From assembly GCF_038562415.1 (NCBI RefSeq), contig NZ_JBCFBA010000001.1, forward strand, positions 186,001 through 250,000: a DNA stretch of 64,000 nt, written 5' to 3'. Source of the DNA: Solidesulfovibrio sp. GTDB taxonomy: Bacteria > Desulfobacterota > Desulfovibrionia > Desulfovibrionales > Desulfovibrionaceae. The position numbers and the translations under genes were made by a program. Under the pieces are notes generated by a model. That model saw only the letters and a list, made by a program, of their open reading frames with translations. It made no database searches and was not told the origin of the DNA. This document shows, in pieces, positions 45,563 through 64,000 of this stretch; positions within the stretch are counted from its first letter, which is position 1; every line of letters starts with the position of its first letter.

Positions 45563-48500
45563 ATGCCGCAAGCGGTCGATCTTTCCGACTTCGATCTTGA
45601 GGAAGCCCTTTCCCAGCCGATCGAAATCCCGGAGGAGCCGGAGGCCCAGGGGGCAGGACCCCGCTTCGATGCGGATGCCGACCTGGACGATCCGGGCGGG
45701 GAGACTCCATGGGTTCCGGGTATCCGGGCGGGCCGCCAGCCCAGGCAATCCCGGCGGCCCGGCTTTCGGTCCCAGGCCGGGAGCGTGGACCTTTCCGATT
45801 TCGATCTCGGCGTCCTGGATACGCCGTCACCGAAGGCCGTTGCTCCCGCATCGGCGTCACGCGCCGGCGTCGACCTTTCGGAATTCGACCTGAGCGGATT
45901 GGATGTCGGCTCCAACACGGTCCCCCAGGCGGAACCGACACCCGCCGCCAGTCTCCCCGGTTCGGTCATGGATGGCTATACACCGGCGCGCACGCCCCCG
46001 GAGGCGCCGTCGCCGGCGGCCGGCGAGGTCTTGCGCCGCAAGCTGCCTGAAACGTTTCCCACGCCGCCGGACGGTCCCCAGGCGACACCAGTCGATGCGT
46101 ACGGCCCGGAGAGCTTTTCTTTGCCCCAGGAGCCCGCCGGCACCAGGTTGGAGCAAGGCAAGGAGCCCACCGGGACCAGGCTGGAGCAGGGCAGGGAGCC
46201 CTCTTTCTGGGAAGGCGTCCAGGAAACCTTGCGACGCGGCACGGGCGTTTCCCGGGACCGCCTGGCCAATGCCCTGGCCCTGGCCGAAGACCTGGGCGTG
46301 CCGCCGTCCCAGGTGGTCAAGAACTGGGATTACTACCGGACGCAGGCCGGGCTGCATCCGGAGCCGACGACCGGGCAGCTCGCCGGCGGGATCATGACCC
46401 TGCCGATCGTGGCCGGCATGATGACCAACCCGGGCGCCACGCTGCTTGGCCTGGCCGCTTACGAGGCCCTTGGCGAAGCCGAAAGCTACGGCATTTCCAA
46501 GGCCCTGGGAGAGCAATACCGGCTGGGGCTGCGCAAGGGCTTGGCCGACTTGCTGCCGGACGAAACCGGCGACGTCGGCAAAGGCGCGGCCGAGATCGCC
46601 GACTTCATGGCCAAGGCCGGCATCCTCGGGGCGGCGCACGGCAAGGTCCCGGAGGCCTGGAAGAAAGTCCAGGCCAGCCAATGGTATCGGGAACTGACCA
46701 TTCCCGAGCGGTCCGTGGTGGCCACCGACCTTGCCAACAACCTGGACGGCCTGCTTGGGCTGGACCCGAATTCCGGGCAGTACATCCGGCGACGCCTGGC
46801 CGCGCTCAAGGAGATGTTCGGGGCGGATTCGCCGCAATACAAGAGCTATTACGAAGAGGCCCTGTATGGCTCGGGCCGGGCTGGCCCACCTCCCCAGGGG
46901 CCGCCCGGGGCCGGCGGGACCAGCGGCGGCGGCCCCACGCTTGGAACGCCCGGGGCGCGGGCGGAAGGCGCGCAAGCCCCGGCGATGGACTTGTCCGAGT
47001 TCGATCTTGGCCCCCAGCCCGGGAGCGTTTCCCCGGGGCCGGCCCGGGGCGCTTCGCCGTCAGGCAGGCCGCCGCTGGACGTTCCGGACATTGGCGACCT
47101 GATCGAGGAAGCCCCGGCCATCCCCCTGCCGCCGGCGGCGACCGCGCCAGGGGCGCCTTCTTCCGCGCCCGAGGTGAACGCCGGGGCTGCGGCCTACGAC
47201 GTCCACCGCCTCAACGCCACGAGCTTTTCCGGTTCCAGCCAGGGCAATCGCCTTTCTCCGGAACAGCTTGGCGTGTTCATGAACGAAATGTCGGCCGGCC
47301 AGGCCCTGGCCAGGACGCTGGCGGATCTGCGCGGCGCTGGCCATGGTGACCTGGCCGACAAGGTGCAGATCACCAGCGCCAATGCCGGCGAGCATGCCCC
47401 GCATTCGCTCCATTACCGCGGTGAGGCCGTGGACCTTAATTCCAAGGCCCTGTCGGCCCAGGAACAGGCGACCATCGCGGCCTTCGCCGAGAAAAACGGC
47501 CTGGTTCGCGACGTGGCCGGCGAACCCTGGCATTTCAGCTACCGGGGGGAAAAGCCCGCCAAGCCCCCCTCGGCGAACAAGGAGGTCTCCCATGTCCCGT
47601 CTCAGGCTGTTTCTGGCCCCCAAGGCGACGTCGGGCGGCTACCCGTCGACACCGGCGCCGAAGATGCCGTCCCCGCGCCCGCCGGCGCCCAAGGCCCCTT
47701 CCGTGCGCAAACCGAACCCGGCCAAGGGGACCAGGCCGCCCAAACCCAACCCCGGCAAGAGCTGACGGATGAACTGGCGCCGGCCGTGGACGTGGCCGCC
47801 CATGAGGCCGCCACGTCGCCGCAAAACGACCTGCCGGAGCCTTCCGAGGCGCAAAAGGAAGCGGGGAACTACCGCAAGGGCCACGTGCGCCTCCAGGGGC
47901 TGGACATTTCCGTGGAGAATCCCGCTGGCTCCATGCGCACCGGCACCGCTCCGGACGGCACAGAATGGGCCACGGAGATGGCCAACCACTACGGCTACAT
48001 CAAAGGAACCACGGGCAAGGACAAGGATCACCTGGACGTGTTCCTCGGGCCTCAGGCCGAAGCGTCGCCCTGGGTGTTCGTGGTCAACCAGGTCGACCCG
48101 GCCACGGGGAAATTCGACGAACACAAGGTCATGCTCGGTTTCGACAGCCCGGAAGCGGCCCGGGCCGCCTACCTGGCCAATTACGAAGCCGGCTGGCAGG
48201 GCCTGGGCTCCATGGCCAGCATGGACATGCCCGGCTTCAAGGGCTGGCTGAAAAACGGGGACATGTGGCAGCCGGCCAGGACGCGCAAGCCGGTGCGACA
48301 GCCGGCGCCGGCGGAAGGAAGCGGCCCGGGCCAGGCGCTACGTTTCCAACGCACCTGGCAAGGGTCGCCCACGCGCGGCATTGAGCGCATGGATGATGCC
48401 TATCTGGGGACCGGCGAAGGTCGGCGCTCGGAAACGAATAACGACTACAGCGGCGGCTACGGATGGGGGCATTACTCGGCGCAAAACAGAGAAACCGCTG

Positions 48501-51500
48501 AATGGTATCGCGAAGAGCTATCCCGGGAAAAAGCGTCTCCGCAGGCCAGGGATCTAAAAAACGCGCTTCAGGAAGTCGATTATCTTGGTTTCGACACGGC
48601 CAGCCAGGCGGCGACAGCCATTGATAAACATCCGGACTGGGCAAAGCGTTGGGACGTCTTGCCTGAGGAGAAAAGCCGCATTGAGGCAGCCCTACGTAAT
48701 TTCAATGAGGCCAAGAAAGGTCAGTTGTACCAACTGGCTATACCCGATCCTGACAAATTGTTGGATTGGCATAAGCCTCTGAATGAGCAACCGGAAAGCG
48801 TAAAGGAAAAGCTTAAACAGGCCAGTTTATATCAAGAGAATGCCTATCCGACCATCGAACGTTCGGACTCTGGAAAAACCTGGTGGGTTAAAGGCCCAGG
48901 CGGCTGGGAACCGGCTGGAGCCCCCCGTTTTCGGAGCCTGGAAAAAGCACAGCAATGGTTGCGCGAAAACCGCGAAACGTTCGCGTTCAAGCCGACCGGC
49001 GAGCTCCTTTATCGAAAGCTGGCCACGAGCAAGGGCGGACAGAAAGCCGCTTCCCAGTACCTCGATTCCATAGGCATCCCTGGCCATCAGTATTTGGACG
49101 CCGGCTCGCGTGGGGCGAGTAAAGGCACACACAATGTCGTCACCTATTCGGACCGGCATATCGACATCACAGGGCGTTTTCGTCGGCGTCAGGCCCCCGG
49201 CGTGGCCGGCTTCGGTGATGTTGCCACCGTGCGCCAGGCCCTGGCGCCGGGCCTGGAACAGTATCCGGCCGTGGCGCGCCTGGTGGACGTCTTCGCTACG
49301 GAAGGCGACATGCCGCCGGCGCTGCGTCGCAGTATCGAGGCGGCCGGCATGTCCCGGCGTTTCTACGCCGTCTATGATCCCGAGAGCGGCCGCATCGCCT
49401 TTGTCGCGGCCAACATTCCCTCGGCCCGGGCCGCGCAAGCCGGATTCCTCAAGATGCTGTTGCACCATGAAGGGCGGCACGCGGGCCTTTCCTTCGTGTT
49501 CGGTTCGGAGGCGGCCAAGCTCGACTGGATGGGACGGGCGGCGGCGACCCTGCCGCGCGAGGTCGCGGCCTGGCTGCGGAAGCACAAGCGGCCGGACACG
49601 GCGGCGAACCGGGCCGAGGCGGCGGAAGAAATCCTCGTGGATTGGGCGGCGGCCGGAAAGGTCCACAACTGGGTGGACCGCTTGCTGGCCAGGATCGCGG
49701 CCTGGATACGGAAGTTCTTCCCGAAACTGCGCCTGACGCGGGCCGAGATGCGGGACCTGCTGGCCCGGGTGGACGACTGGCTGACGGGCAAGGGGCCGCG
49801 TTTCGTGGGCGAGCGGGAGGCTTCGCGGGGCTCGCGCGAAGTCGCGCCGGCGTTTTCGCGGGAGGAGACGAGAGGGCTTCCGGAGCGCGTCAGGATTGTC
49901 GCATTGCCCTCGGAACGGTTCCCGGCGAGGCATATCGCGGAACTTCGCAAGGAAGCCAGGAAATGGGCTTTGAAGCATCTTCCCGGAAGCTACAGGAATG
50001 ATCATACGGGCTGGGATATCGAAATAACGCGCCGCCGCATCGACAAACAGACGAGCCAGCGTGAAAACCCGCTGCACTATGAAACTCTTCGGGTGTTGCC
50101 GCAGATCATCAAAGAAGCCGTGTTGGCCGAATCGGCCCCGGATCGGAGCAACGATCCATACATCAAGGCGGTGCATCGCCTGTATGCGCCGTTACGTGCG
50201 GAGGGGGAGATTTACCGGGTCAAGTTGACCGTCAAGGAATACACGGACGGCCGAAAGCTCTACGACCATTCTCTGACGGAAATGGAAAAGCCGGCCCGAC
50301 CCGTTCGCGACATGCCCGATGGGCAGCGGATCGACGAACCTGCGACCGGCTCTCCCGCGCCTGGCCATGAAGGCCAAGACGATATTTCCGTAAGACAGCT
50401 TCTGGACGGCGTCAAGGGCGGCGATATCCGGATGGCCAGGGCCGAACCCCAACGCCTGTACGGCGTGACCGATGGAAAGGTCAGGGCTCTGGCGGAAGCG
50501 GACGGTGAAGGCGTGACGGTTCATTTCGCCGAAGGCGACAGCCTGCGCGAAGGCGCCTACCGGACCGAGGCCTTCCCGGACATGGCGGCCGCGCGCAAGG
50601 CCATGGCCGATGCCGGGCTCACCATCATGCGGCAAGCGGTTTCCGGTCGGGCCGAACGGCAGCCCGGGCGGGCGCGGGAAAGCGGGCAGGGGGGTGGCTC
50701 CTTTGGCTCGGTCCCGCCGGCCACGGCACCGGCACAGGAGAAGGCCTCCCAGGGGGCCGGAGGCGGAAATGGCGCCACAGAAGGGGGCAAGGCCGCCGCA
50801 GACGAAGGGCCCCAGGCGTTGCGCCTGGAAATGCCCGAACTGGTGCGCCTGGCCCGGGGGCTGCTGGGGCGCTACCCGGCGGTCCTGGAAAAACTTTATG
50901 GCCGTCGCCTGGGTTCGTTCCATCCCCGCCAGGGCCAGTCACAGATCAAGCTCAAGGCGGACATCTTCATCGGCCCCAAGCTCGCCGAAGCCGAGTTCAA
51001 AACCCCGGCGGAAGCGGAGGCCTTCGTGCATGAGGTCCTCCAGAAACACGGCCTGGCCTGGGACGACGCGCATGTGGTCACGGCCAAGACCCCCAAGGGC
51101 CAGGCCGTCAGCGTCTACCGGGTGGACCCGGATTATGCCGCCATGGTGCTGGCCCACGAGATCGGGCACCTGATCGATTATCTGCCGGATCACGAGCTGC
51201 GGCGGGGCAACATTTTGGGCCACGTGGCAGGGTTAAAGAAGTACCTGAAACATTGGTTGGCCAACCGGCCGGGCGGCGAAGGGCCGCTCACGCCCAAGGA
51301 CCGGCTGCGGCTCATGTCCGTCGCCCGCCGTATGACCGCCGGCCGGCAATACGAGATCCAGGTCGAGGAAGAGATCGTCAAGACGCTCGGCGTGACGCCC
51401 GAGGACATCCTCGGCATCTGGAACGACGTGGCCGGCCGGGACAAGGTCTCGCCCAAACTCTATGACTACATCGCCGGACTGTCCTCGGCCGAGAAGAAAT

Positions 51501-54409
51501 CCATCCTGCGGGAGGCCATGCGCGGCCTGGTGGCCAAGGAGCTGGAACGCTTCGGCCGCACCGTCCGGGAGAAAACCGGCCGGATGCTCACCAAGATCGT
51601 GGCGGAGCCAACCAGGGATGCGGCGGTCCAGGCCAAGTACCGGGACCTGGTGCGTGAGGAGATCGAGAAGCGGCGGCTCTTTTCCCGGGACGACCTCAAG
51701 GAGGAGCTGAAAACCCTTTCCCGCTGGTGGTCCCCGTTCGATCCCGCCGCAGACGCCCAATACACCGCCTACCGCTACGGCAACGAAGAGCTGTACGCCG
51801 ACGCCCTGTCGGCCTTGCTCAATTCGCCCTACGAGGTCAAAGCGCGCGCACCGGGCTTTTACGAGGCCTTTTTCAACTGGTTGGGCGAAAAGCCCGAGGT
51901 CAAGGCCCTGTACGACGCCATCCAGGAGGACATCCGGTCCGGCGAGTACAAGACGGACCGGGTGAAGCGGCTGCACCAGATGTTCCGCAAGGCCGACGAA
52001 GCGTACCGGGAGAAATACGAAAAGAAACTGGAATATGGCCGGCCGATCAAGGCAGCCCTGGTCAACCGGCATGCGCCCGTATTCGCGGCGCTTACCGACA
52101 AGCGCGTGCGGTTCCTGGTGGAAAAGGCCGTGTACACCGGCAGCCAGCGGGAAGGGTATCTTCGGGAAGTGTTCACGAAGGTGACCAAGGTCCTGGAAAA
52201 AGCCGGCCTCGAGCTCGAGGATTTTGGCGAATACCTCTTTCACAAGCGGGTGCAGGGGGAACGGTCGAAAATGGCCAACCCCCAGGGGTGGACGGCCAAG
52301 GCCTCGGGCGAGCGCCTCGAGGAGATGCGCGACGCCAGTTTCACTCCCGACCAGGCCCGGAAGCTGGAAAAGGCGCGCAAGGACTTCCTGGCCATCCGCC
52401 GGGAATGGGTCATCGCCGAGATGGAAAAGGCGGATATGTTCGCGCCGGAGCTCATGAAGGCCATCAGCGAGGCCGAGGACTACGCCACCTTCGACGTCTT
52501 TTCGCACAGCCTCGAGGAGGGCTACGGCCGGGGCGTGGGCGCGGCCATTCACCGCCAGATCGGCACGGTAAACGAAATCACCAACCCCTTCACGGCCACG
52601 GTAATGAAGGATCTTTCCGTCCTGGCCGCAGTCAATTGGAACACGGCCAAACGCGGCGTGCTCGAGGACCTGCTGGCCGGGAAGCCGGGGCGGATCGAGC
52701 CGGCCAAGCGCGTCTGGAACGGCAAGCGCCTGGCCCCGGTCGAGCCCAAGGCAGCGGATCAAGGCATGGTCGTTTACCTGGATCGCGGCGAGCTCAAGGC
52801 GTTCTACGTCGATCGCATGGTGGCCGATGCCTTTGACCAGCAAACGGCCGAGGAGGTTTCGGCTCTGGGGCGGCTGCTGCAGCATGTGGCCAACCCGTTC
52901 CGGCTGGTCTTCACGCAGTTCAACCCGGGGTTTCAGATGTACAACGTGATCAAGGACTTCCGAAGCGCCTTGATCAACCTGCCCGGGGCCAATCCCGAAG
53001 TGCGGTTCCTGCGCGAATACGTCAAGGCGCTCGTTCCGGCCTTCCAGTCCGCCTTCGGCCTGCCGCCGGAGACGGTCAAGGAGATGGAAAAGGCCGGCAT
53101 GTTCGTGTCCGTGGCCAACCCCATGGGCGTGGAGCGCGAGGACGTGCAAATGCGCCGGCTCGAACAGATGTACGGGTTGCGGCCGAAGGAGTGGGAGCTG
53201 CACGTCTGGCGGCCCATGGATGCCCTCTTCAACTGGGTGGCTCATGGTGCCATGCGGGCGGCGAACTTCGCCTTCAACCTGTCCGGGGCCCTGGAGCGCG
53301 TGCCGAAGATCGCCGGCTATACCTACCTGAAACGCTACTTCCCGGGCCGCAGCGAATACGAGCTGGCCCATATGGTCCGTTCCTGGGCCGGGTCGCCGGC
53401 ATTTCTCAACAAAGGCACGGCCCATGCGATCACGAACAACCTGATCCTGTTCAGCAATGCCTTCGTGCAGGGCAACGTGGCCAGCCTCGAGGCCATGCGG
53501 GCCAACCCGAAGCAGTACTGGTGGAAGTGGGCCAAGTGGTCCCTGGTGCCGAAGCTGCTCATGTGGGGCGCGGCCCTGGGGGCCTTTGGCGAAGCCATGC
53601 GCCAGGTGATGGACGGAGTCGGGGAATACGACAAGACCAACTATCTGATCATCCCCCTGGGGCAGACGCAGAACAAAAAAAGCGTCGTCCTACGGCTGCC
53701 GCTGGATGAGTTTTCGCGCCTCACGGGCGGCATCCTGTGGAAGACGCTACAATTCGTCCGGACCGGCGATGCCGATGGGTTGAACAGCTTGGCGGATTTC
53801 ATGGCCGGTCAGGTGCCGAGCCTCAATCCGGCCTTCAGTGTCGGGACGAATGTCTGGTCCTACCTTTCGGGGCACAATCCCTATGACATGTTCCGACAGC
53901 GGCCCATTATGGACGAAACGACTTTCCGCGCCGGCGGCACAGCCGCGGCCAAGGCCATGGGCAAGTATGTCTGGAACACCGTTGGCGGCGGTGTGGTCTA
54001 CGTGTTCCGAAATGATGACGCCATTGATGTGAAAAAGGAGCTCTTCGAGCAGGTGGTGCAAGCGCCTTTTCTGGCCAATACCCTGGGCCGGTTCGTGAAG
54101 GTCACGGACCTGGGGGTGCGCGAGCAGCTCACGGCCGCCAAGGGCGAGCCGCAGCAGAGCCGAGCCCGGACGATCCTGGCCGTGCGGTCGGCCATGGCCA
54201 GGTTGGTCAACGGCGATCCATTGACCCAGGAAGAGCTCGGCCTGTTGGCGCAGGAGCGGGATTATCTCCGGCGCAATATGCCGCAAGCCTTGATGCGGCG
54301 CGAAGGGAGCGCTCTTTGGGATGCGCTCATGCGGGCCGCAACGAAGGAAGAAAAGATCGCCATCTTGCGCAAATGGCAGGAAATGGGCCGGGCAGCCAAC
54401 GACCGCTAA
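45563..54409 (+). CDS. giant polyvalent virion protein (2948 residues)
   Basis: Likely packed in the virion and injected. Domains in order: a disordered N-terminus with four DLS(D/E)FDL motifs (6-12, 76-82, 104-110, 476-482) and a tandem GTRLEQG repeat near 190; an M15/VanY-type peptidase, HSLHYRGEAVDL at 614-625 and EPWH at 654-657; an inorganic-pyrophosphatase-like domain (~770-910); an ART-PolyVal ADP-ribosyltransferase-like domain (~930-1200); a zincin HEGRH (His1302, His1306); an LPD3/barnase-like region (~1435-1576); a second zincin HEIGH (His1865, His1869); helical LPD-type regions; and an LPD38-like end (~2800-2910). The assemblage matches the polyvalent proteins described for phages and conjugative elements. 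The frame is uninterrupted. Confidence 0.85.
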   Translation: MPQAVDLSDFDLEEALSQPIEIPEEPEAQGAGPRFDADADLDDPGGETPWVPGIRAGRQPRQSRRPGFRSQAGSVDLSDFDLGVLDTPSPKAVAPASASRAGVDLSEFDLSGLDVGSNTVPQAEPTPAASLPGSVMDGYTPARTPPEAPSPAAGEVLRRKLPETFPTPPDGPQATPVDAYGPESFSLPQEPAGTRLEQGKEPTGTRLEQGREPSFWEGVQETLRRGTGVSRDRLANALALAEDLGVPPSQVVKNWDYYRTQAGLHPEPTTGQLAGGIMTLPIVAGMMTNPGATLLGLAAYEALGEAESYGISKALGEQYRLGLRKGLADLLPDETGDVGKGAAEIADFMAKAGILGAAHGKVPEAWKKVQASQWYRELTIPERSVVATDLANNLDGLLGLDPNSGQYIRRRLAALKEMFGADSPQYKSYYEEALYGSGRAGPPPQGPPGAGGTSGGGPTLGTPGARAEGAQAPAMDLSEFDLGPQPGSVSPGPARGASPSGRPPLDVPDIGDLIEEAPAIPLPPAATAPGAPSSAPEVNAGAAAYDVHRLNATSFSGSSQGNRLSPEQLGVFMNEMSAGQALARTLADLRGAGHGDLADKVQITSANAGEHAPHSLHYRGEAVDLNSKALSAQEQATIAAFAEKNGLVRDVAGEPWHFSYRGEKPAKPPSANKEVSHVPSQAVSGPQGDVGRLPVDTGAEDAVPAPAGAQGPFRAQTEPGQGDQAAQTQPRQELTDELAPAVDVAAHEAATSPQNDLPEPSEAQKEAGNYRKGHVRLQGLDISVENPAGSMRTGTAPDGTEWATEMANHYGYIKGTTGKDKDHLDVFLGPQAEASPWVFVVNQVDPATGKFDEHKVMLGFDSPEAARAAYLANYEAGWQGLGSMASMDMPGFKGWLKNGDMWQPARTRKPVRQPAPAEGSGPGQALRFQRTWQGSPTRGIERMDDAYLGTGEGRRSETNNDYSGGYGWGHYSAQNRETAEWYREELSREKASPQARDLKNALQEVDYLGFDTASQAATAIDKHPDWAKRWDVLPEEKSRIEAALRNFNEAKKGQLYQLAIPDPDKLLDWHKPLNEQPESVKEKLKQASLYQENAYPTIERSDSGKTWWVKGPGGWEPAGAPRFRSLEKAQQWLRENRETFAFKPTGELLYRKLATSKGGQKAASQYLDSIGIPGHQYLDAGSRGASKGTHNVVTYSDRHIDITGRFRRRQAPGVAGFGDVATVRQALAPGLEQYPAVARLVDVFATEGDMPPALRRSIEAAGMSRRFYAVYDPESGRIAFVAANIPSARAAQAGFLKMLLHHEGRHAGLSFVFGSEAAKLDWMGRAAATLPREVAAWLRKHKRPDTAANRAEAAEEILVDWAAAGKVHNWVDRLLARIAAWIRKFFPKLRLTRAEMRDLLARVDDWLTGKGPRFVGEREASRGSREVAPAFSREETRGLPERVRIVALPSERFPARHIAELRKEARKWALKHLPGSYRNDHTGWDIEITRRRIDKQTSQRENPLHYETLRVLPQIIKEAVLAESAPDRSNDPYIKAVHRLYAPLRAEGEIYRVKLTVKEYTDGRKLYDHSLTEMEKPARPVRDMPDGQRIDEPATGSPAPGHEGQDDISVRQLLDGVKGGDIRMARAEPQRLYGVTDGKVRALAEADGEGVTVHFAEGDSLREGAYRTEAFPDMAAARKAMADAGLTIMRQAVSGRAERQPGRARESGQGGGSFGSVPPATAPAQEKASQGAGGGNGATEGGKAAADEGPQALRLEMPELVRLARGLLGRYPAVLEKLYGRRLGSFHPRQGQSQIKLKADIFIGPKLAEAEFKTPAEAEAFVHEVLQKHGLAWDDAHVVTAKTPKGQAVSVYRVDPDYAAMVLAHEIGHLIDYLPDHELRRGNILGHVAGLKKYLKHWLANRPGGEGPLTPKDRLRLMSVARRMTAGRQYEIQVEEEIVKTLGVTPEDILGIWNDVAGRDKVSPKLYDYIAGLSSAEKKSILREAMRGLVAKELERFGRTVREKTGRMLTKIVAEPTRDAAVQAKYRDLVREEIEKRRLFSRDDLKEELKTLSRWWSPFDPAADAQYTAYRYGNEELYADALSALLNSPYEVKARAPGFYEAFFNWLGEKPEVKALYDAIQEDIRSGEYKTDRVKRLHQMFRKADEAYREKYEKKLEYGRPIKAALVNRHAPVFAALTDKRVRFLVEKAVYTGSQREGYLREVFTKVTKVLEKAGLELEDFGEYLFHKRVQGERSKMANPQGWTAKASGERLEEMRDASFTPDQARKLEKARKDFLAIRREWVIAEMEKADMFAPELMKAISEAEDYATFDVFSHSLEEGYGRGVGAAIHRQIGTVNEITNPFTATVMKDLSVLAAVNWNTAKRGVLEDLLAGKPGRIEPAKRVWNGKRLAPVEPKAADQGMVVYLDRGELKAFYVDRMVADAFDQQTAEEVSALGRLLQHVANPFRLVFTQFNPGFQMYNVIKDFRSALINLPGANPEVRFLREYVKALVPAFQSAFGLPPETVKEMEKAGMFVSVANPMGVEREDVQMRRLEQMYGLRPKEWELHVWRPMDALFNWVAHGAMRAANFAFNLSGALERVPKIAGYTYLKRYFPGRSEYELAHMVRSWAGSPAFLNKGTAHAITNNLILFSNAFVQGNVASLEAMRANPKQYWWKWAKWSLVPKLLMWGAALGAFGEAMRQVMDGVGEYDKTNYLIIPLGQTQNKKSVVLRLPLDEFSRLTGGILWKTLQFVRTGDADGLNSLADFMAGQVPSLNPAFSVGTNVWSYLSGHNPYDMFRQRPIMDETTFRAGGTAAAKAMGKYVWNTVGGGVVYVFRNDDAIDVKKELFEQVVQAPFLANTLGRFVKVTDLGVREQLTAAKGEPQQSRARTILAVRSAMARLVNGDPLTQEELGLLAQERDYLRRNMPQALMRREGSALWDALMRAATKEEKIAILRKWQEMGRAANDR

Positions 54410-54423
54410 ACCGGAGGAGCGAC

Positions 54424-54843
54424 ATGGCCAATCTCGTGTACGATTCCTTTTTGACCAATATCGCCAACGGCGTTTTCGACATGGACGGCGATACGTTCAA
54501 GGTCGCGTTGCTTGGTTCCGGCTATACGCCAAACGCCGGCCACAGCGTGTTCGCCAATGTGTCGGCCAGCGAGGTTGCCGGCACGGGCTACACCGCCGGC
54601 GGAAAGGAACTGCTCAACCGCACCTGGTCGTTTCGCGACGGCAAGGGGCGCCTCGAAGCGGATGACCCGGTCTGGACCGGCGCCACCTTCATTGCCCGCT
54701 ATGCGGTGTTGTACGCGGCCAAGATCGTGGCAGGCATCGTCAATCCCCTGGTCGGGCTGATTGACTTCGGCGTGGACAAGACCGTTTCCGAGGGCGATTT
54801 CACTGTGCTCCTCAACAGCGCCGGCATTGTGACCCTGGGGTAG
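54424..54843 (+). CDS. phage structural protein
   Basis: A 139-residue protein preceded by GGAGG. It begins MANLVYDSFLTNIANGVFDM and contains alternating beta strands with FKVALLGSGYTPN and FIARYAVLY; similar proteins in many phages lie near tail fibres and may cap or decorate the tail. No motif is decisive. Confidence 0.65.
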   Translation: MANLVYDSFLTNIANGVFDMDGDTFKVALLGSGYTPNAGHSVFANVSASEVAGTGYTAGGKELLNRTWSFRDGKGRLEADDPVWTGATFIARYAVLYAAKIVAGIVNPLVGLIDFGVDKTVSEGDFTVLLNSAGIVTLG

Positions 54844-55403: not shown

Positions 55404-55700
55404 ATGAGCAGCGTTGTCTATGTCGGCGATATCGGAACGGAATTGCTTGTGGATTGCGGCCAGGACATTTCCGGCGCGACCAATACCTTTCTGACGGTGC
55501 GGTTTCCCTCGGGCAACGTGGTGAACTGGCCGGCCACGGTGGCCACGGTGGAGGGCAAGGCCCAGTTCCTGCGCTGCCTGACCCGGGCCGGCGATCTGGC
55601 CGAGGCGGGCAATTATCGGGTGCAGGCCATGCTGACCCTGGGCGACTGGAGCGGTTCAGGCAAGACGGCCGTGCTGCAGGTGCGGGAACGTTTTGCGTAG
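55404..55700 (+). CDS. small phage protein, Ig-like or baseplate accessory type
   Basis: A 98-residue beta-rich protein. YVGDIGTELLVDCGQDISGA followed by FPSGNVVNWPATV resembles N-terminal domains of phage receptor-binding accessory proteins. It ends the structural gene run. ATG at 55404 follows GAGGCCCC. No certain function. Confidence 0.6.
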   Translation: MSSVVYVGDIGTELLVDCGQDISGATNTFLTVRFPSGNVVNWPATVATVEGKAQFLRCLTRAGDLAEAGNYRVQAMLTLGDWSGSGKTAVLQVRERFA

Positions 55701-55733: not shown

Positions 55734-56393
55734 ATGTCGCTTTCCGATCGTATCGAGTACCGCACCTACAAAATAACGTTGGTGGAGCCGATCCTCGGGT
55801 CGCTCCCGTCACAGCGCCAAGTCTACCAGGACCTGGTGGCGGCAAGAGCGCCGGAGCCGGATGTCGAGGGGGCGGAAGAAATGGCCATGCTGCCGACGCT
55901 TCCGGAGGGGATGGATGAACGGACGACAGTCTTTTTGCGCAACAATGACGGCTGGTGCTCGATCCTCGACTACCAATTCTTCGGTTTTCTCAAGGAAGCC
56001 GGGAATACGCTGAAAGATATCGTGCAGTACGAGACGACGGGGAAAAGGGCCAAATCGACGAAGGAAGGCATCGCGGCACTTCGCAACAAACTTGGGCGGT
56101 ATGCCTTTTGCGGGCCTCGGATCATCCCTTTGCAGAAAGAGCCGAACGGGATTTTCAAGCGCCCTCTCCGGCGGATAACGAAAGACGGCCCGATGAGCTG
56201 TCTCGCCACCTCGGAATTGATCAATGCCGGGGTTGCCTTCGATGTCTGGATAGGGCTTCTTCCCCATGGTGAAGTTCAGTGGAGCGTCATCGAGCAATGT
56301 CTGGAGTATGGCCAGATGAAAGGGCTTGGTCAATTTCGTGGCGGAGGCTTCGGTCGGTTCACGTTCGACCTGGTCTCCCAGAGTGCAATGTAA
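55734..56393 (+). CDS. RAMP-like phage protein of unknown function
   Basis: A 219-residue soluble protein. The start YKITLVEPILGSLP resembles the first strand and turn of a ferredoxin-like fold, and the C-terminus has a glycine-rich loop followed by a strand (GLGQFRGGGFGRFTFD, residues ~199-214). That arrangement is seen in Cas5/Cas6/Cas7 RAMP proteins and in a family of uncharacterised phage proteins. There is no catalytic His triad that could be assigned. It is encoded 1.5 kb from the CRISPR array. Whether it binds nucleic acid, mimics a Cas subunit, or does something else is unknown. Confidence 0.55.
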   Translation: MSLSDRIEYRTYKITLVEPILGSLPSQRQVYQDLVAARAPEPDVEGAEEMAMLPTLPEGMDERTTVFLRNNDGWCSILDYQFFGFLKEAGNTLKDIVQYETTGKRAKSTKEGIAALRNKLGRYAFCGPRIIPLQKEPNGIFKRPLRRITKDGPMSCLATSELINAGVAFDVWIGLLPHGEVQWSVIEQCLEYGQMKGLGQFRGGGFGRFTFDLVSQSAM

Positions 56394-56474
56394 CAGCTAC
56401 GTCCGGTATCGTTGCGTGCCGCGACGCGCGGTGTATTGAGATCAAGCCCTTTCCCCTGACCATAGGTCGGCAGC

Positions 56475-57239
56475 ATGGAATTATTCGAATGCAAGGGGCT
56501 GCGCGCCCGCCTTAGCCCAGCCGCTTGCCGGGCGAACCGGACCCGGCCGGTGTCGTCCTCGCTGGCGACCATCGCCACGCGTCCTCCGGCCTGCCGCGCC
56601 TGCGTCCAGTGGAAGGAGATCGATCCGCCGCTGCCCGAGGCGGTCGACCCGGCGGAACAGGCCCTGGCGGAGACGCTGGCCACGTTGTGGCAGGACATCG
56701 ACGAAGGGCGGCTCGGAATAAAGCATGTCCTGAGCGCCTACAACCGGCGGGCGCCTGCGGAATTGCGCAAGCGCCGGTCACAGCAAATGAGCGATTGGCT
56801 ACGGATGCTCGGACTCCGGGTGGTCGAGGGGGAGAGCTTTCGCGATGTGAAGGGCCTGCGATGCCTGCTGGTGGATGGGGCGACCGAGGCTTTCGTAAGG
56901 GGCCTGGGTTTTGCGCCTCTGCAAGACGGCCGGGAGATCGCGGCGGTGGACCGGCTGTTGGAGGTGGTCGGCCTTGACCAGGCCCGATCCGGGTCAGCGG
57001 TCGAGGGAGCGGATGATCCGCCTGGGGAGGCTGCCATCGGTCCGGAGCATGGGCCGGCTTCGTCCACAGGCGGGGCCCCTGGCGCTCCTTGCTCCCGATG
57101 CCGGTATTTCCGGCCCTTGGCGACATACTACGACGGCATAGAAGGAGTGCGCTTGTGTTGGGCCAGGCAAACGGCCTGGGATTTCACCTGTTTTGCGCAA
57201 CGTGCGGAGGAGCATCATGAAGCTCGTGTTGACTCGTGA
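56475..57239 (+). CDS. zinc-binding phage protein with wHTH-like middle
   Basis: A 254-residue protein with two cysteine clusters: residues ~6-44 (four Cys, ending CRAC) and ~215-245 (C-x2-C then two Cys). The middle (~85-135), HVLSAYNRRAPAELRKRRSQ then SDWLRMLGLRVVEG, resembles a winged-helix found in phage regulators and primase-associated proteins. Function unknown; a nucleic-acid binder is likely. It leads a run of small genes at the right end. Confidence 0.55.
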   Translation: MELFECKGLRARLSPAACRANRTRPVSSSLATIATRPPACRACVQWKEIDPPLPEAVDPAEQALAETLATLWQDIDEGRLGIKHVLSAYNRRAPAELRKRRSQQMSDWLRMLGLRVVEGESFRDVKGLRCLLVDGATEAFVRGLGFAPLQDGREIAAVDRLLEVVGLDQARSGSAVEGADDPPGEAAIGPEHGPASSTGGAPGAPCSRCRYFRPLATYYDGIEGVRLCWARQTAWDFTCFAQRAEEHHEARVDS

Positions 57240-57878: not shown

Positions 57879-60800
57879 GTTTCAACCCACGCCCCCGCGA
57901 AGGGAGCGACGTTTGGCCCCGCGCACAGGACAGTTTGAACAGGTTTTGTTTCAACCCACGCTCCCGCGAAGGGAGCGACCGCGGCGCGGCGTACAGGACC
58001 GGGTCGAAAATGCAGTTTCAACCCACGCTCCCGCGAAGGGAGCGACATTTCGTCACGCGCTTCTCGGCGCAGAGCTGGGCGTTTCAACCCACGCTCCCAC
58101 GAAGGGAGCGACCTCGGTCACGGCGACGCGCGACGCGAGCTGCGTCGTGTTTCAACCCACGCTCCCGCGAAGGGAGCGACTTGATGCCAGCCAGACGGGC
58201 GGCGGCCCGGCCGTGGAGTTTCAACCCACGCTCCCGCGAAGGGAGCGACGGCCACGCTGCCCCGGGAATGGCTGTCGAGGAGAGGTTTCAACCCACGCTC
58301 CCGCGAAGGGAGCGACCGCGACAAGCCGGCGCTCCTCTGTGCCCTTAATCGTTTCAACCCACGCTCCCGCGAAGGGAGCGACCAGCCATCGTATTTCAAC
58401 CAAATCGTCAATAAAACGTTTCAACCCACGCTCCCGCGAAGGGAGCGACCCCTTCTCACACCAGCGACAGTTTTCGTTTTTGCAGTTTCAACCCACGCTC
58501 CCGCGAAGGGAGCGACCAGGCCCATGCTTTTGAAGTGGTCGATCTGTGACTGTTTCAACCCACGCTCCCGCGAAGGGAGCGACATGATGCCCTGACCAAG
58601 CGTCGGCTGCTCGGTCGGTTTCAACCCACGCTCCCGCGAAGGGAGCGACCGACTTCCGGGGCAATGGCCTGTCGGAGCATCTCGGTTTCAACCCACGCTC
58701 CCGCGAAGGGAGCGACAGGTGGCCGACGGCTGCGACCTTGTGGGCCTGGACGTTTCAACCCACGCTCCCGCGAAGGGAGCGACCCCGGCGGGCATTGTCC
58801 GCCCGCTCGAAGCCCAGGGTTTCAACCCACGCTCCCGCGAAGGGAGCGACAATTGGCCGCCGTTTCGATTCTGGGGATGTATGGCGTTTCAACCCACGCT
58901 CCCGCGAAGGGAGCGACGAGTCGTTAACGAATGACCAAGGAGTGCTATAAGCTGTTTCAACCCACGCTCCCGCGAAGGGAGCGACTGGCGGCGCAACGGG
59001 ACAAATATCAGGCCGTGCTGGTTTCAACCCACGCTCCCGCGAAGGGAGCGACCGTTCTCCTCGGCCCAGGCCTCCAGGATGCGCAGGTTTCAACCCACGC
59101 TCCCGCGAAGGGAGCGACGCGGCCAGGGCGGAAGTGGCGTCGGCCGGGATCTGTTTCAACCCACGCTCCCGCGAAGGGAGCGACCCCGCGAAAGGCGGCC
59201 GGCGCGGCCAGGGCCACGGGTTTCAACCCACGCTCCCGCGAAGGGAGCGACACAGTGACCGTGGTCATCCCCCCGGCGTAGGTGGCGGTTTCAACCCACG
59301 CTCCCGCGAAGGGAGCGACCCGACCTTGTCGCCCAGGCCCGCATCGCCCTCGCCGTTTCAACCCACGCTCCCGCGAAGGGAGCGACCCTATCGCGGCCGC
59401 ACGGTGGAGGACGTGGAACAGTTTCAACCCACGCTCCCGCGAAGGGAGCGACCGGCGGCGTCGGCCGTGGACACGCACAGGTTCAGGTTTCAACCCACGC
59501 TCCCGCGAAGGGAGCGACCGTCACTCGACGAGGCTCTCGTCGTCGCCAAGGCGGTTTCAACCCACGCTCCCGCGAAGGGAGCGACTGAGGGCGCCGTGGA
59601 TGCAGCTACCATCGTTGCTGTTTCAACCCACGCTCCCGCGAAGGGAGCGACCACCCCGGCCGGCCATTCCTCGCCCTACACCGTGGTTTCAACCCACGCT
59701 CCCGCGAAGGGAGCGACCGATGAGCTCGTCGAGCTCGGCATTGGTGTAGAGGGTTTCAACCCACGCTCCCGCGAAGGGAGCGACAGTTCGTGGCCACCGT
59801 TGTCGGCGACCAGCGGCAGTTTCAACCCACGCTCCCGCGAAGGGAGCGACTGGAGCGCAACGCATGGGCATCACAGGCCTTGCGGTTTCAACCCACGCTC
59901 CCGCGAAGGGAGCGACATGACCGCGCCGTGGGCCATGTGGTCGCCCTTGCGGTTTCAACCCACGCTCCCGCGAAGGGAGCGACTTCGGCCAGGTCGAGCG
60001 CCACAACGGCGGCCGATCGGTTTCAACCCACGCTCCCGCGAAGGGAGCGACCTCGGCCCAGACATCCACGACCGCCGCCGAGGTAGCAGTTTCAACCCAC
60101 GCTCCCGCGAAGGGAGCGACGGATCCACGTCGCAGCCGGCCGGCGGCAACCGGATGTTTCAACCCACGCTCCCGCGAAGGGAGCGACCCTCACGTTCATA
60201 ATCACCCTCCCATCACCATGCGGTTTCAACCCACGCTCCCGCGAAGGGAGCGACTAGCCGTAGGCCGACAGCCCGCCGACCACGGTGGTTTCAACCCACG
60301 CTCCCGCGAAGGGAGCGACGGTTTCGGTCCGGCAAAAGGCCATCACGGCCGAGGTTTCAACCCACGCTCCCGCGAAGGGAGCGACGGGCCAGAGTCTCCA
60401 CGGACACGGCGGCCTGGGGTTTCAACCCACGCTCCCGCGAAGGGAGCGACGTTGATATAAGTTGCATCGTTATTGAGTTGAGAGAGTTTCAACCCACGCT
60501 CCCGCGAAGGGAGCGACACCCGGCATTGGAGGCGGCGGCGAAGCATTTCACGGTTTCAACCCACGCTCCCGCGAAGGGAGCGACTCTTCCGGCGGGTCAA
60601 GTCAAAACCTGGGCGACGAGTTTCAACCCACGCTCCCGCGAAGGGAGCGACCTTGGACAAATACATGCGCGACCGCAAGCGCGACCGTTTCAACCCACGC
60701 TCCCGCGAAGGGAGCGACCGTAGGCGGCCGGGAATGGCGAAGGCTGAGCATGGTTTCAACCCACGCTCCCGCGAAGGGAGCGACAATGACTGGAGTAGAC

Positions 60801-62846
60801 CGGTCGTTATTGGGTTCGTTTCAACCCACGCTCCCGCGAAGGGAGCGACTTTTTTTTCAACCCTAGACTGGCCAAATTATTACGTTTCAACCCACGCTCC
60901 CGCGAAGGGAGCGACCTGGCGCCGGGGCTTGGGTCAAAAAAGCCCTGGCCGTTTCAACCCACGCTCCCGCGAAGGGAGCGACACGGGTTTTGCGATGAGT
61001 GCCACGCCGCCATCGCGGTTTCAACCCACGCTCCCGCGAAGGGAGCGACCCAAGCGTCGGCCCGGGCTCCCCGTCCTCGTCGGTTTCAACCCACGCTCCC
61101 GCGAAGGGAGCGACGTTATCCTTTATTTCCGCCCATCCCCTCGGTATTGTTTCAACCCACGCTCCCGCGAAGGGAGCGACGCCAAGCGTCGGCCCGGGCT
61201 CCCCGTCCTCGTCGGTTTCAACCCACGCTCCCGCGAAGGGAGCGACTCGCGCATGATCAAGATCATCGCCGTTGAGTTGGGTTTCAACCCACGCTCCCGC
61301 GAAGGGAGCGACCGAGGTGACTATCCTGGCCGGGCGCGCGGGGACGGGTTTCAACCCACGCTCCCGCGAAGGGAGCGACCTGGCGGCCTACATAATCGAG
61401 CGGTGCTCGTCGGGTTTCAACCCACGCTCCCGCGAAGGGAGCGACATCCATAGGAAAGTCGCTCAATTCTATCTTTGCAGGTTTCAACCCACGCTCCCGC
61501 GAAGGGAGCGACCGCCTTCGCCGTTGGTGTTCGTGCCCAGGTATGCGGGTTTCAACCCACGCTCCCGCGAAGGGAGCGACCCTTGCAGGTCGGCCAACGT
61601 GGCGTCGGCCTGGTCGTTTCAACCCACGCTCCCGCGAAGGGAGCGACGGTCGGGGCGGTCACGTAGCCGCCGCTACCCGAGGAGTTTCAACCCACGCTCC
61701 CGCGAAGGGAGCGACCACGCACCACCGAACACCCCGCGCCGTGGGCCGGGTTTCAACCCACGCTCCCGCGAAGGGAGCGACGGTCTTGCATAGAGTTGAT
61801 GGAGCCGTCGAGCAGTGTTTCAACCCACGCTCCCGCGAAGGGAGCGACAAAACACCGGCCCCGTTTACGGCGCAGGCTACGGTTTCAACCCACGCTCCCG
61901 CGAAGGGAGCGACCGTCGGGTTCTCGGCCGGTGCCAAGGGTTTCTCCATGTTTCAACCCACGCTCCCGCGAAGGGAGCGACCTTGCTGGCCGCGTATTCA
62001 GCCACAGGGGCATAGTTTCAACCCACGCTCCCGCGAAGGGAGCGACCGGCCAAGGCTGTGGCGTAGGGCGGAGAGTTTGGTTTCAACCCACGCTCCCGCG
62101 AAGGGAGCGACTGTATGTCGAGGGGACGCTGCGCACGAGGTCCTGGGTTTCAACCCACGCTCCCGCGAAGGGAGCGACATGGGTGGACTTGGTGGTTTTG
62201 CGACTGGCCTCATGGTTTCAACCCACGCTCCCGCGAAGGGAGCGACACTGGTCATGCGTTCCAAGGGCGCGAAGCTCTATCCGGTTTCAACCCACGCTCC
62301 CGCGAAGGGAGCGACATTACAATAAAAGCGTCCAATGACGTCACATCCATAGTTTCAACCCACGCTCCCGCGAAGGGAGCGACCGGCGTCGACGTTCAGG
62401 GCGACCGCATCGAGGTCGTTTCAACCCACGCTCCCGCGAAGGGAGCGACGAGGAAATTATACAGCGATGCACGGACGGAATTGGTTTCAACCCACGCTCC
62501 CGCGAAGGGAGCGACCGGGGGCTTTAGGCGCTTTCGCGCCTGGACAAAGTTTCAACCCACGCTCCCGCGAAGGGAGCGACAAAAACTGTACGCGCATCGC
62601 ATGGCCCGGTGGTGGTTTCAACCCACGCTCCCGCGAAGGGAGCGACATGGCCGGCAAAGGGGGCCGTGAACTGCCCAGATTGGTTTCAACCCACGCTCCC
62701 GCGAAGGGAGCGACCATGGCCGCAGTCTCCGACGGGCAGGCATTTTTTGTTTCAACCCACGCTCCCGCGAAGGGAGCGACCACCCCGAGCGGCGGTGATA
62801 ATTCTGGTGGTATGGTTTCAACCCACGCTCCCGCGAAGGGAGCGAC
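57879..62846 (-). CRISPR. CRISPR array, 75 repeats/74 spacers, type I-C-like repeat
   Basis: I counted 75 copies of a 32-bp repeat starting GTTTCAACCCACGCTCCC and ending GAAGGGAGCGAC on the plus strand, with spacers of 32-37 nt (average about 35). Read on the minus strand it ends GTGGGTTGAAAC, the normal type I-C 3' handle orientation, and its CGCTCCC/GGGAGCG arms form a hairpin. The array is therefore probably transcribed right to left from the leader at 62847-62962. Mutated repeats occur at the low-coordinate end (57893 T to C; 58099 G to A), as expected for the oldest end. Long frames through the array are artefacts of the repeat period. Confidence 0.97.
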
Positions 62847-62962: not shown

Positions 62963-64000
62963 TTATAATGTGATAGGTCCTGCGCGAACCTCCCCGGATT
63001 TTATGGGGGACTTGAGGTTCGCGCGCGGTTCCGCGAGATACCCAAGGAACTCATCATAGCAACCCTGCCAGGCGTAGAGTTGCGGCCAGCCTTCAACCGG
63101 TTTGATGGGTTCCCGCTCGAGGCGGGAGGACCAGATTTGCACGGAGGTGTCCTGCAACAGCCTTTGCGGCACGAGATAGCCGGCCTGGAGGCGCTCCAGG
63201 GTCGTCGCATCCACCACCACCGTCACGGTATCGCTGGCAATCAAGCGAAACCGGTGTTGGACGTAACGAAACTCGTACGCCGCATCGTTCTCGCTGATGG
63301 ACAGGCCAAGCCCTGTGCCGCCGTGATGCGCCCCCAGGTTCAACTCCCGACGCAACGCCTCGCGGCAATGGTCCGGGCCGATCAGGCCGTCCTGGAACAG
63401 GCTTGCCAAAGCCCGCGCCGGAAAGCGCGCGCCGGGATGGGGGTGCACCTCATCCGCTAGGAGCACAAAATCGTAAACCACGCCCTCGGCCTCGGCTTCC
63501 CGGCAGACCCGGCCGCCAAGCTGGAGCAGGTTGCACAGCCCGAAACGCTCCCGAAATCCCGTGCGAAAGGAGAAATCCACACCGGCCTCGACACAGGATG
63601 TGGCGACCAGGATCCACTGGGCGTCCGCGACGTCCCGTAGCCGCCGCTTGACCCGTTGCAGCGTCCGAGCCCTGTCCCGAGGGCACAACGCCGTGGAGAG
63701 GTGTTCCACATGCCTTCGGCCCAATCGGGCCGCCAGACGTTGAGCCAGCAACGCCGCGCCGCGCACCGTGTTCATGACCACGATACGCGGGCCGGGAGCC
63801 GCAAGAACATGCCCCACAAGCGCATCAAGACTGAGGGCCTCGGGAATCGTGACGTAGCGCAGCCGCTGGTTTTCCGCCCCTGTCGCCCTGCGCCGCACCT
63901 CCTCGGGCACAAGCGCCGGGACTTCCAAGGCCGAGAGGCCATGGGCGCTTTCCGCCTTGCGGAAATGCTCCAGCTCCCAAAAGCGGGTAAGGGAGCCGGA
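62963..64000 (-). CDS. cas3: CRISPR-associated helicase/nuclease Cas3, C-terminal part
   Basis: The 3' part of cas3; the frame is open to the window edge (codons continue past 63928, where a TTG could be misread as a start). Visible are helicase motifs of the second RecA-like domain: HLSTALCP, motif V ATSCVEAGVDFSF and motif VI GGRVCREA. The nuclease HD and Walker A lie outside. It degrades DNA marked by Cascade. It reads toward the leader, so it is last in its transcript on this side, which is unusual because cas3 is generally first in type I-C operons. A type I-U/I-G origin is not excluded. Confidence 0.85.
   Translation of the reverse strand, partial: SGSLTRFWELEHFRKAESAHGLSALEVPALVPEEVRRRATGAENQRLRYVTIPEALSLDALVGHVLAAPGPRIVVMNTVRGAALLAQRLAARLGRRHVEHLSTALCPRDRARTLQRVKRRLRDVADAQWILVATSCVEAGVDFSFRTGFRERFGLCNLLQLGGRVCREAEAEGVVYDFVLLADEVHPHPGARFPARALASLFQDGLIGPDHCREALRRELNLGAHHGGTGLGLSISENDAAYEFRYVQHRFRLIASDTVTVVVDATTLERLQAGYLVPQRLLQDTSVQIWSSRLEREPIKPVEGWPQLYAWQGCYDEFLGYLAEPRANLKSPIKSGEVRAGPITL

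Follow-up and report, generated by a model that had tools for sequence, protein, structure and literature searches.

The closest known counterpart of the locus examined here is VIPR, for which a 2026 bioRxiv preprint (PMC13142463) was the sole paper on the system among those listed in our literature search. That preprint describes a phage RAMP protein, Vipr, that is guided by a pentanucleotide-repeat RNA (vrRNA). As set out there, vrRNAs consist of 9-16 YNNGG repeats and double-stranded DNA is read with a one-base skip; the skip bases fall mostly at codon wobble positions, and many of the natural targets are competing phages. The preprint also reports guide function for the SUSP1 VIPR, describes systems with a single vrRNA and allows a consensus related to GGY/NN (YNNGG; fig. 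S17). VIPR systems fall into seven types, and among their further traits are a vap accessory gene, a structured 3' tail and hypervariable guides. Two further points of comparison come from structure. Csm3, the Cas7 of type III-A, and the Cas7 of type VII share their fold with the protein studied here over nearly its whole chain, including a glycine-rich loop. The closest predicted viral structure is UniProt A0A8S5R426 (E 1e-16, 29% identity), known from its entry name alone, 'Cas system-associated RAMP superfamily protein' (Siphoviridae sp. ctcMb1).

The gene under study lies in the window (the whole stretch of 64,000 nucleotides of Solidesulfovibrio sp. DNA that was analyzed), directly ahead of a short repetitive tract and about 1.5 kb from a CRISPR array. 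Several of its features are those described for VIPR in the preprint: a phage-borne, single-domain RAMP of about 20 kDa, adjoining, apparently non-coding stretches of five-base repeats, a one-base skip at wobble positions and putative targets in other mobile elements. We consider it very probable that the gene encodes a Vipr RAMP and belongs to a VIPR-type system whose own tract guides repression of a matched gene. The locus also departs from the published description in unit consensus, guide length and guide conservation.

Fold and distribution of the predicted RAMP

The gene and its product are as follows.

55734 to 56393, plus strand: vipr ORF, ATG start, 219 amino acids plus stop, a RAMP of the Vipr kind
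Layout of the 219-residue protein, of the Vipr kind: a single RRM/ferredoxin core, a hairpin at the thumb position and a C-terminal glycine-rich loop

Core, thumb and loop were named by reading the AlphaFold (AF2) model, which scored a pLDDT of 94.1 and a pTM of 0.87, together with the alignment. CRISPR effector entries made up all of the best 50 Foldseek matches to this model. In VIA the scores for Csm3 (9g9f_D; Z 12.1, rmsd 3.4, 160 aligned) and type VII Cas7 (8yhd_O; Z 12.0, rmsd 4.7, 172 aligned) were tied. The window protein is 12 and 14% identical to these subunits and is encoded outside a cas operon, and its relatives lack the host repeat in the stretches examined. Structure prediction and Foldseek had been suggested in an earlier, sequence-only reading of the gene as a check on its RAMP-like character, and this check returned the RAMP fold. 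Profile searches point the same way: against the PDB, a profile of nine members matched type VII Cas7 at E 1.8e-4 and Csm4 at E 7.8e-4, and a profile of 65 members matched the same two at E 5.8e-4 and E 8.7e-3. Single family members weakly match Csm4, Cas7 III-D, Cas6 and RAMP models; the window protein itself matches none of these models and has no match in Pfam, PHROG, NCBIfam or PADLOC. By profile and predicted fold, the 219-codon ORF is real and its product a true RAMP.

The glycine-rich loop that the sequence-only reading had placed at the C-terminus is indeed there. The C-terminal part of the protein contains GLGQFRGGGFGRF, and in the alignment of 65 RAMP members (A2) six of the 14 invariant columns lie between Y192 and G207, at this loop.

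The description of the gene as phage-borne likewise holds, since copies 59-89% identical to the window protein occur in seven viral contigs and stretches 28-30% identical to it in four gut phage records. A pattern search of viral contigs gave 313 matches, 272 of which were confirmed as RAMP relatives by profile scan and 80 of these kept; on this evidence relatives of the protein are widespread in phages. The genome contigs searched did not contain the window protein, and among 99 genomes, made up of its own and 98 related ones, it was found in its own only.

A five-base tract adjoins the gene across the family

In most relatives an apparently non-coding tract adjoins the RAMP gene on the same strand, with a G every five and sometimes every six bases, and in the non-redundant loci its units read YRNNG. 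Counts out of 71 refer to such loci, obtained by removing 14 near-duplicates from 85. Counts of neighboring genes were rough and left aside, as the simple gene finder had missed the RAMP in 7 of 84 loci. The autocorrelation of G at lag 5 averaged 0.27 over the 300 nt downstream of the gene (70 loci); upstream it was 0.07, and within the gene -0.03. When a unit model was applied leave-one-out, with the tested locus excluded, 54 of the 71 loci had a tract scoring 20 bits or more in the 400 nt downstream of the gene, and 17 had one upstream. Control stretches after other genes held such a tract in 8 of 918 cases, and these are probably vipr tracts as well, because seven of the eight loci behind them have a tract upstream of vipr; the maximum among 1420 shuffles was 14.3 bits. 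With one model for all loci, a tract of at least 18 bits stands beside vipr in 66 of the 71, the five exceptions being the window, L001, L004, L005 and L037.

SUSP1, which was kept out of the training of the unit model, served as a positive control. In 50 kb of this phage exactly four tracts of at least 18 bits were found. All four lie on the minus strand, with one preceding and three following the presumed vipr and vap genes, which is the arrangement given in the preprint (PMC13142463). The SUSP1 vipr gene was assigned from layout and sequence, and its product matches the A2 profile weakly (10.5 bits).

The composition of the units sets the family apart from SUSP1. Among 5382 five-base units taken from 95 tracts, 95% have G at base 5, a value biased towards G because the same model cut the units; 82% have Y at base 1 and 73% have R at base 2. 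Only 25% have G at position 4, compared with 76% of 54 units in SUSP1. The units of the family have the form G-Y-R-N-N. A further difference from VIPR lies in six-base CAAHGG-like units, which recur in the tracts, most often every 4-5 units (a spacing count that took in the tract of L026 twice, unlike the locus and unit counts above).

Individual loci show further arrangements. In tracts such as those of L025 and L062 the six-base units come most often every 4-5 units and create a 31-base superperiod. Downstream of vipr in L048 (8719-13202) thirteen separate tract segments follow in a row, perhaps a large vrRNA array. In L058 the gene two places upstream encodes another protein, which resembles that of SUSP1 (E 1.4e-6 against the SUSP1 vipr), and one tract has G at base 4 in 16 of 16 units; the locus perhaps carries two kinds of VIPR side by side.

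The short tract of the window phage

Three features follow the coding sequence of the window gene.

56391 to 56396, plus strand: TAACAG, the stop codon plus three bases, at the place where a six-base unit precedes a guide
56397 to 56431, plus strand: short putative vrRNA tract, with units CTACG TCCGG TATCG TTGCG TGCCG CGACG CGCGG
56439 to 56452, plus strand: AGATCAAGCCCTTT, partly conserved, after the tract; 10 columns invariant in the A3 alignment

The tract, which was not part of the sequence-only observation, consists of seven perfect five-base units directly after the vipr stop codon. Taking positions 2 and 3 of each unit as guide and position 4 as skip base, the seven units decode to TAnCCnATnTGnGCnGAnGC. 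Bases 2 and 3 give TANCCNATNTGNGCNGANGC, which is identical in seven phages (the window phage and L001-L006). In score alone the tract is not significant, at 10.8 bits against the shuffle maximum of 14.3, and no other tract of at least 18 bits lies within the window. It is nearly invariant in the seven phages, with a mean pairwise identity of 94.2%. Fourfold-degenerate vipr sites reach 58.6% and the remaining spacer 75%, but the best of the 38-nt coding windows of vipr equals the tract (also 94.2%; mean 82.9%). What argues for the putative tract is this conservation in seven phages together with the target match described below.

The RNA of 56391-56435 folds in an ordinary way (z 0.19), with no hairpin signal in the tract. 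TAA[AC]AG stands at the vipr stop in all seven aligned phages, and TAACAG may take the role of the six-base unit before the guide. AGATCAAGCCCTTT may form a 3' tail, or it may instead belong to the next gene as a signal. With seven units the window guide is shorter than the 9-16 repeats given for vrRNAs in the preprint (PMC13142463), and it is conserved rather than hypervariable.

The window guide matches a phage-like element in the host genome

Under the skip rule, TANCCNATNTGNGCNGANGC has exactly one match in its own genome, at C20:40149-40168, where a third-order Markov model gives a chance expectation of 0.0085. The site, TAGCCGATCTGCGCCGAGGC, lies antisense in a gene that there codes ASAQIGY (phase GCx TCx GCx CAx ATx GGx TA), so that all skip bases coincide with wobble positions. 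The targeted gene belongs to phrog_10969 (E 5.9e-81) and lies close to portal, major head and virion genes; its distant relatives in Pseudomonas phages carry the annotations structural protein, LigA or hypothetical. In this family, and here in a further difference from VIPR, position 4 often matches the target too: guide base 4 agrees with the C20 site at between 4/7 (window, in which 3/7 differ) and 6/7 (L002), where chance gives at least 4/7 in 7% and at least 6/7 in 0.13% of cases.

Two registers were tested, since register 3,4 had been tried before 2,3. Register 3,4 as guide (ACNCGNTCNGCNCCNACNCG) had no exact match in the own genome and seven with one mismatch, and allowing up to two mismatches it had 154 matches there compared with 320 for the backward control. 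In the family it matched 18 places in 16 of 288 genomes, below control, and it was rejected.

In the family, the register-2,3 guide matches 12 of 288 genomes, compared with two places for the backward-pattern control. In 11 of the 12 the match falls in the same gene and in the twelfth it is unrelated. Within the genus the match is exact in 9 of 14 genomes, the other five having one or two mismatches at bases 2,3. The targeted gene and the portal gene are present in 14/14 of these genomes and the major head gene in 13/14; because target, portal and head are near-universal in these genomes, the C20 element appears to be a fixed phage-like element and not a passing phage, and its presence in all 14 genomes argues that it is not simply a recent rival, a point that weighs against the reading preferred below. 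It is a candidate gene transfer agent or fixed prophage, perhaps the former. The element, with portal, head and tail genes, occupies about 36-54 kb of C20 in G000 (L333, L334).

Neighboring genes and a second guide-target pair

Three genes near vipr are as follows.

54424 to 54843, plus strand: phage gene phrog_644, whose relative in L002 and L003 is the target of the L013 guide
55404 to 55700, plus strand: phage gene just upstream of vipr, with no PHROG match
56475 to 57239, plus strand: next gene, candidate accessory (vap), 254 amino acids with two Cys clusters

The first of these is 49% identical to the gene adjoining the target of the window guide, and the second 59% identical to another gene near the targeted C20 gene. 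The candidate accessory gene has eight invariant Cys in a nine-row alignment, a best PHROG match of only E 0.41 and a low-confidence model (pLDDT 56). Upstream of vipr, the prophage also contains a single 2948-aa ORF (45563-54409).

A second pairing was found in L013, a relative at 60% identity. Its guide has seven units, one of them (TTCGT) without G5, between six-base units. Against the phrog_644 gene it matches 21/21 bases in L002 and L003, and 14/14 at positions 2,3 in L007, in the same wobble phase as the match of the window guide. Counting matches of at least 18/21, there are six real rows, representing two independent pairs, compared with none in five shuffled sets. A one-nucleotide skip at wobble positions is therefore seen, at the level of sequence, in two guide-target pairs.

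Wider decoding was less productive. When all tracts were decoded and compared with 1.03 Mb of phage DNA, matches were no more frequent than for shuffles; exact contiguous matches showed no clear excess at 5-6 units and at seven units involved L013 only, and a 13-unit pattern from L061 had no viral matches. Short-match BLAST of the guides returned 614 rows compared with 245 and 284 in controls; the figure is inflated, since the database includes loci that had been chosen for their match to the window guide. A match of L027 to L029 at 32/37 was set aside as repetitive and purine-rich.

The adjoining CRISPR array is a host type I-C locus

The CRISPR locus lies beyond the candidate accessory gene.

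57879 to 62846, minus strand as judged by the cas genes: type I-C CRISPR array of the host, with 75 repeats and 74 spacers
62963 to 63928, minus strand: C-terminal part of cas3 (I-C), its frame continuing open past the window

The array is thus real, as the sequence-only reading had it, but the connection drawn from it to the RAMP gene is not borne out. It is assigned to type I-C because of cas5c, cas8c, cas7c and cas3, which lie beyond it on the strand opposite to vipr. None of 84 related loci has this repeat in the stretch examined, from which we take the closeness of vipr to the array to be incidental; vipr is not part of a cas operon with a CRISPR array, and what stands beside the family is its own tract. 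A CRISPR-directed role fares no better, as the only exact own-genome match of the window guide lies in a phage-like element and in no cas gene. The remaining suggestion, of an unknown RNA-binding system, came close; the family is, in our reading, that of the published VIPR.

The I-C effector genes are spread over L335 (1439-5068) and window positions 62963-63928. By eye, none of the L335 ORFs of at least 180 aa that were listed is like cas1 or cas4, so the adaptation genes seem not to be adjacent. The first spacer of the array, nearest the prophage, matches phage L003, a member of the same vipr clade, at 28/30 bases, and by this match the host does hold a spacer against a phage of that clade.

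Discussion

The mechanism we propose builds on the RAMP fold, the family-wide tract, the conservation of the short tract, its unique own-genome match in wobble phase and the second guide-target pair. RNA from the tract just after the stop codon would be coated by Vipr subunits, each covering a single five-base unit. Within the unit G5-Y1 would act as scaffold, bases 2 and 3 would pair with DNA and base 4 would lie over the skipped target base. The small Vipr RNP would then repress the matched gene, and in the window copy TAnCCnATnTGnGCnGAnGC would guide it to the C20 site, antisense in the phrog_10969 structural gene. Transcription of the tract, assembly of the RNP, repression and a benefit in competition between elements are what we infer from these sequence comparisons. 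The system looks like a weapon between phages and not a CRISPR mimic, because its guide spells a gene of another phage-like element.

Such a mimic is one rival reading. Viral cas genes can antagonize CRISPR, and a RAMP fold encoded 1.5 kb from a type I-C array, one of whose spacers nearly matches a phage of the same clade, could be a Cas5/6/7 look-alike that poisons or copies the host Cascade as an anti-CRISPR. We regard this as extremely improbable: the host repeat is missing from the stretches examined of all 84 related loci, the constant companion of the family is its own periodic tract, and the best fold matches are type III and VII subunits, though such matches are also compatible with I-C. 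Nearly as improbable is a role of the periodic RNA as filament scaffold or sponge (for protection, packaging or recombination) instead of guide. Some tracts are very long, reaching 1200 nt in L056, and some gut phage relatives lie near YqaJ-, RecT- and SSB-like genes, named by eye from sequence, which would suit recombination with such neighbors; set against this are the variability of bases 2-4, the two guide-target matches and the guide function of the SUSP1 VIPR reported in the preprint (PMC13142463).

Two other explanations accept the VIPR family and question the window guide, and each seems to us improbable. The guide of the window clade could have its true target elsewhere, for example in type IV csf2 of a rival element. 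Type IV systems ride on mobile elements, and among 76 viral-contig matches to the register-2,3 pattern, mostly in unrelated proteins, one in L199 fits better than the C20 target itself: 20/21 bases and 14/14 at bases 2,3, in sense in a type IV Cas7 (csf2) gene (L199:12234-12944; E 1.1e-51), with the skip bases again on wobble positions. A match as good as this is expected 0.1 times among 76, and the only plasmid relative found for the L199 gene is 67.7% identical and in Rhodovastum, so that the host is probably a different one. The first position 4 divides the clade, as C in the window, L001 and L003 fits L199, whereas G in four of the six other clade phages fits the C20 site and not L199. Alternatively, the window-clade tract could be vestigial, or simply regulatory, and its target match a coincidence, the protein serving another RNA or autoregulation only. 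The insignificant score, the mere seven units and the lack of any other tract of at least 18 bits in the window would agree with this, but exactly these bases are conserved, the RNA shows no unusual fold, and a unique match at an expectation of 0.0085 falls in wobble phase in a phage structural gene.

The VIPR-type reading thus remains the one we prefer. The window system would be a new member of VIPR, and its features may make it a variant. More tentatively, and with considerable doubt, we suggest that the subfamily reads a variant VIPR code. In this code the three free bases of each GY/NNN unit would jointly track contiguous target triplets, with bases 2 and 3 obligatory and base 4, which falls at the wobble position, tolerated or read weakly. 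Six-base CAAHGG-like units would divide the RNA into guides, which in both decoded cases span about seven units (21 bp), and the single guide of the window clade would be fixed against a phage-like element present in every genus genome examined, possibly a gene transfer agent.

VIPR was described only in 2026, and the present analysis arrived at the same system independently, starting from sequence alone and in phages distant from SUSP1 and P. fulva, whose systems have been tested. This rediscovery supports the one-base-skip rule through natural guide-target pairs, shows that position 4 need not be G in VIPR-type units and names a concrete target for the window guide, in an element present in all 14 genus genomes searched. 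If the variant reading is true, then, because its guide is fixed against this element, the phage would silence its host's domesticated DNA-transfer machine.
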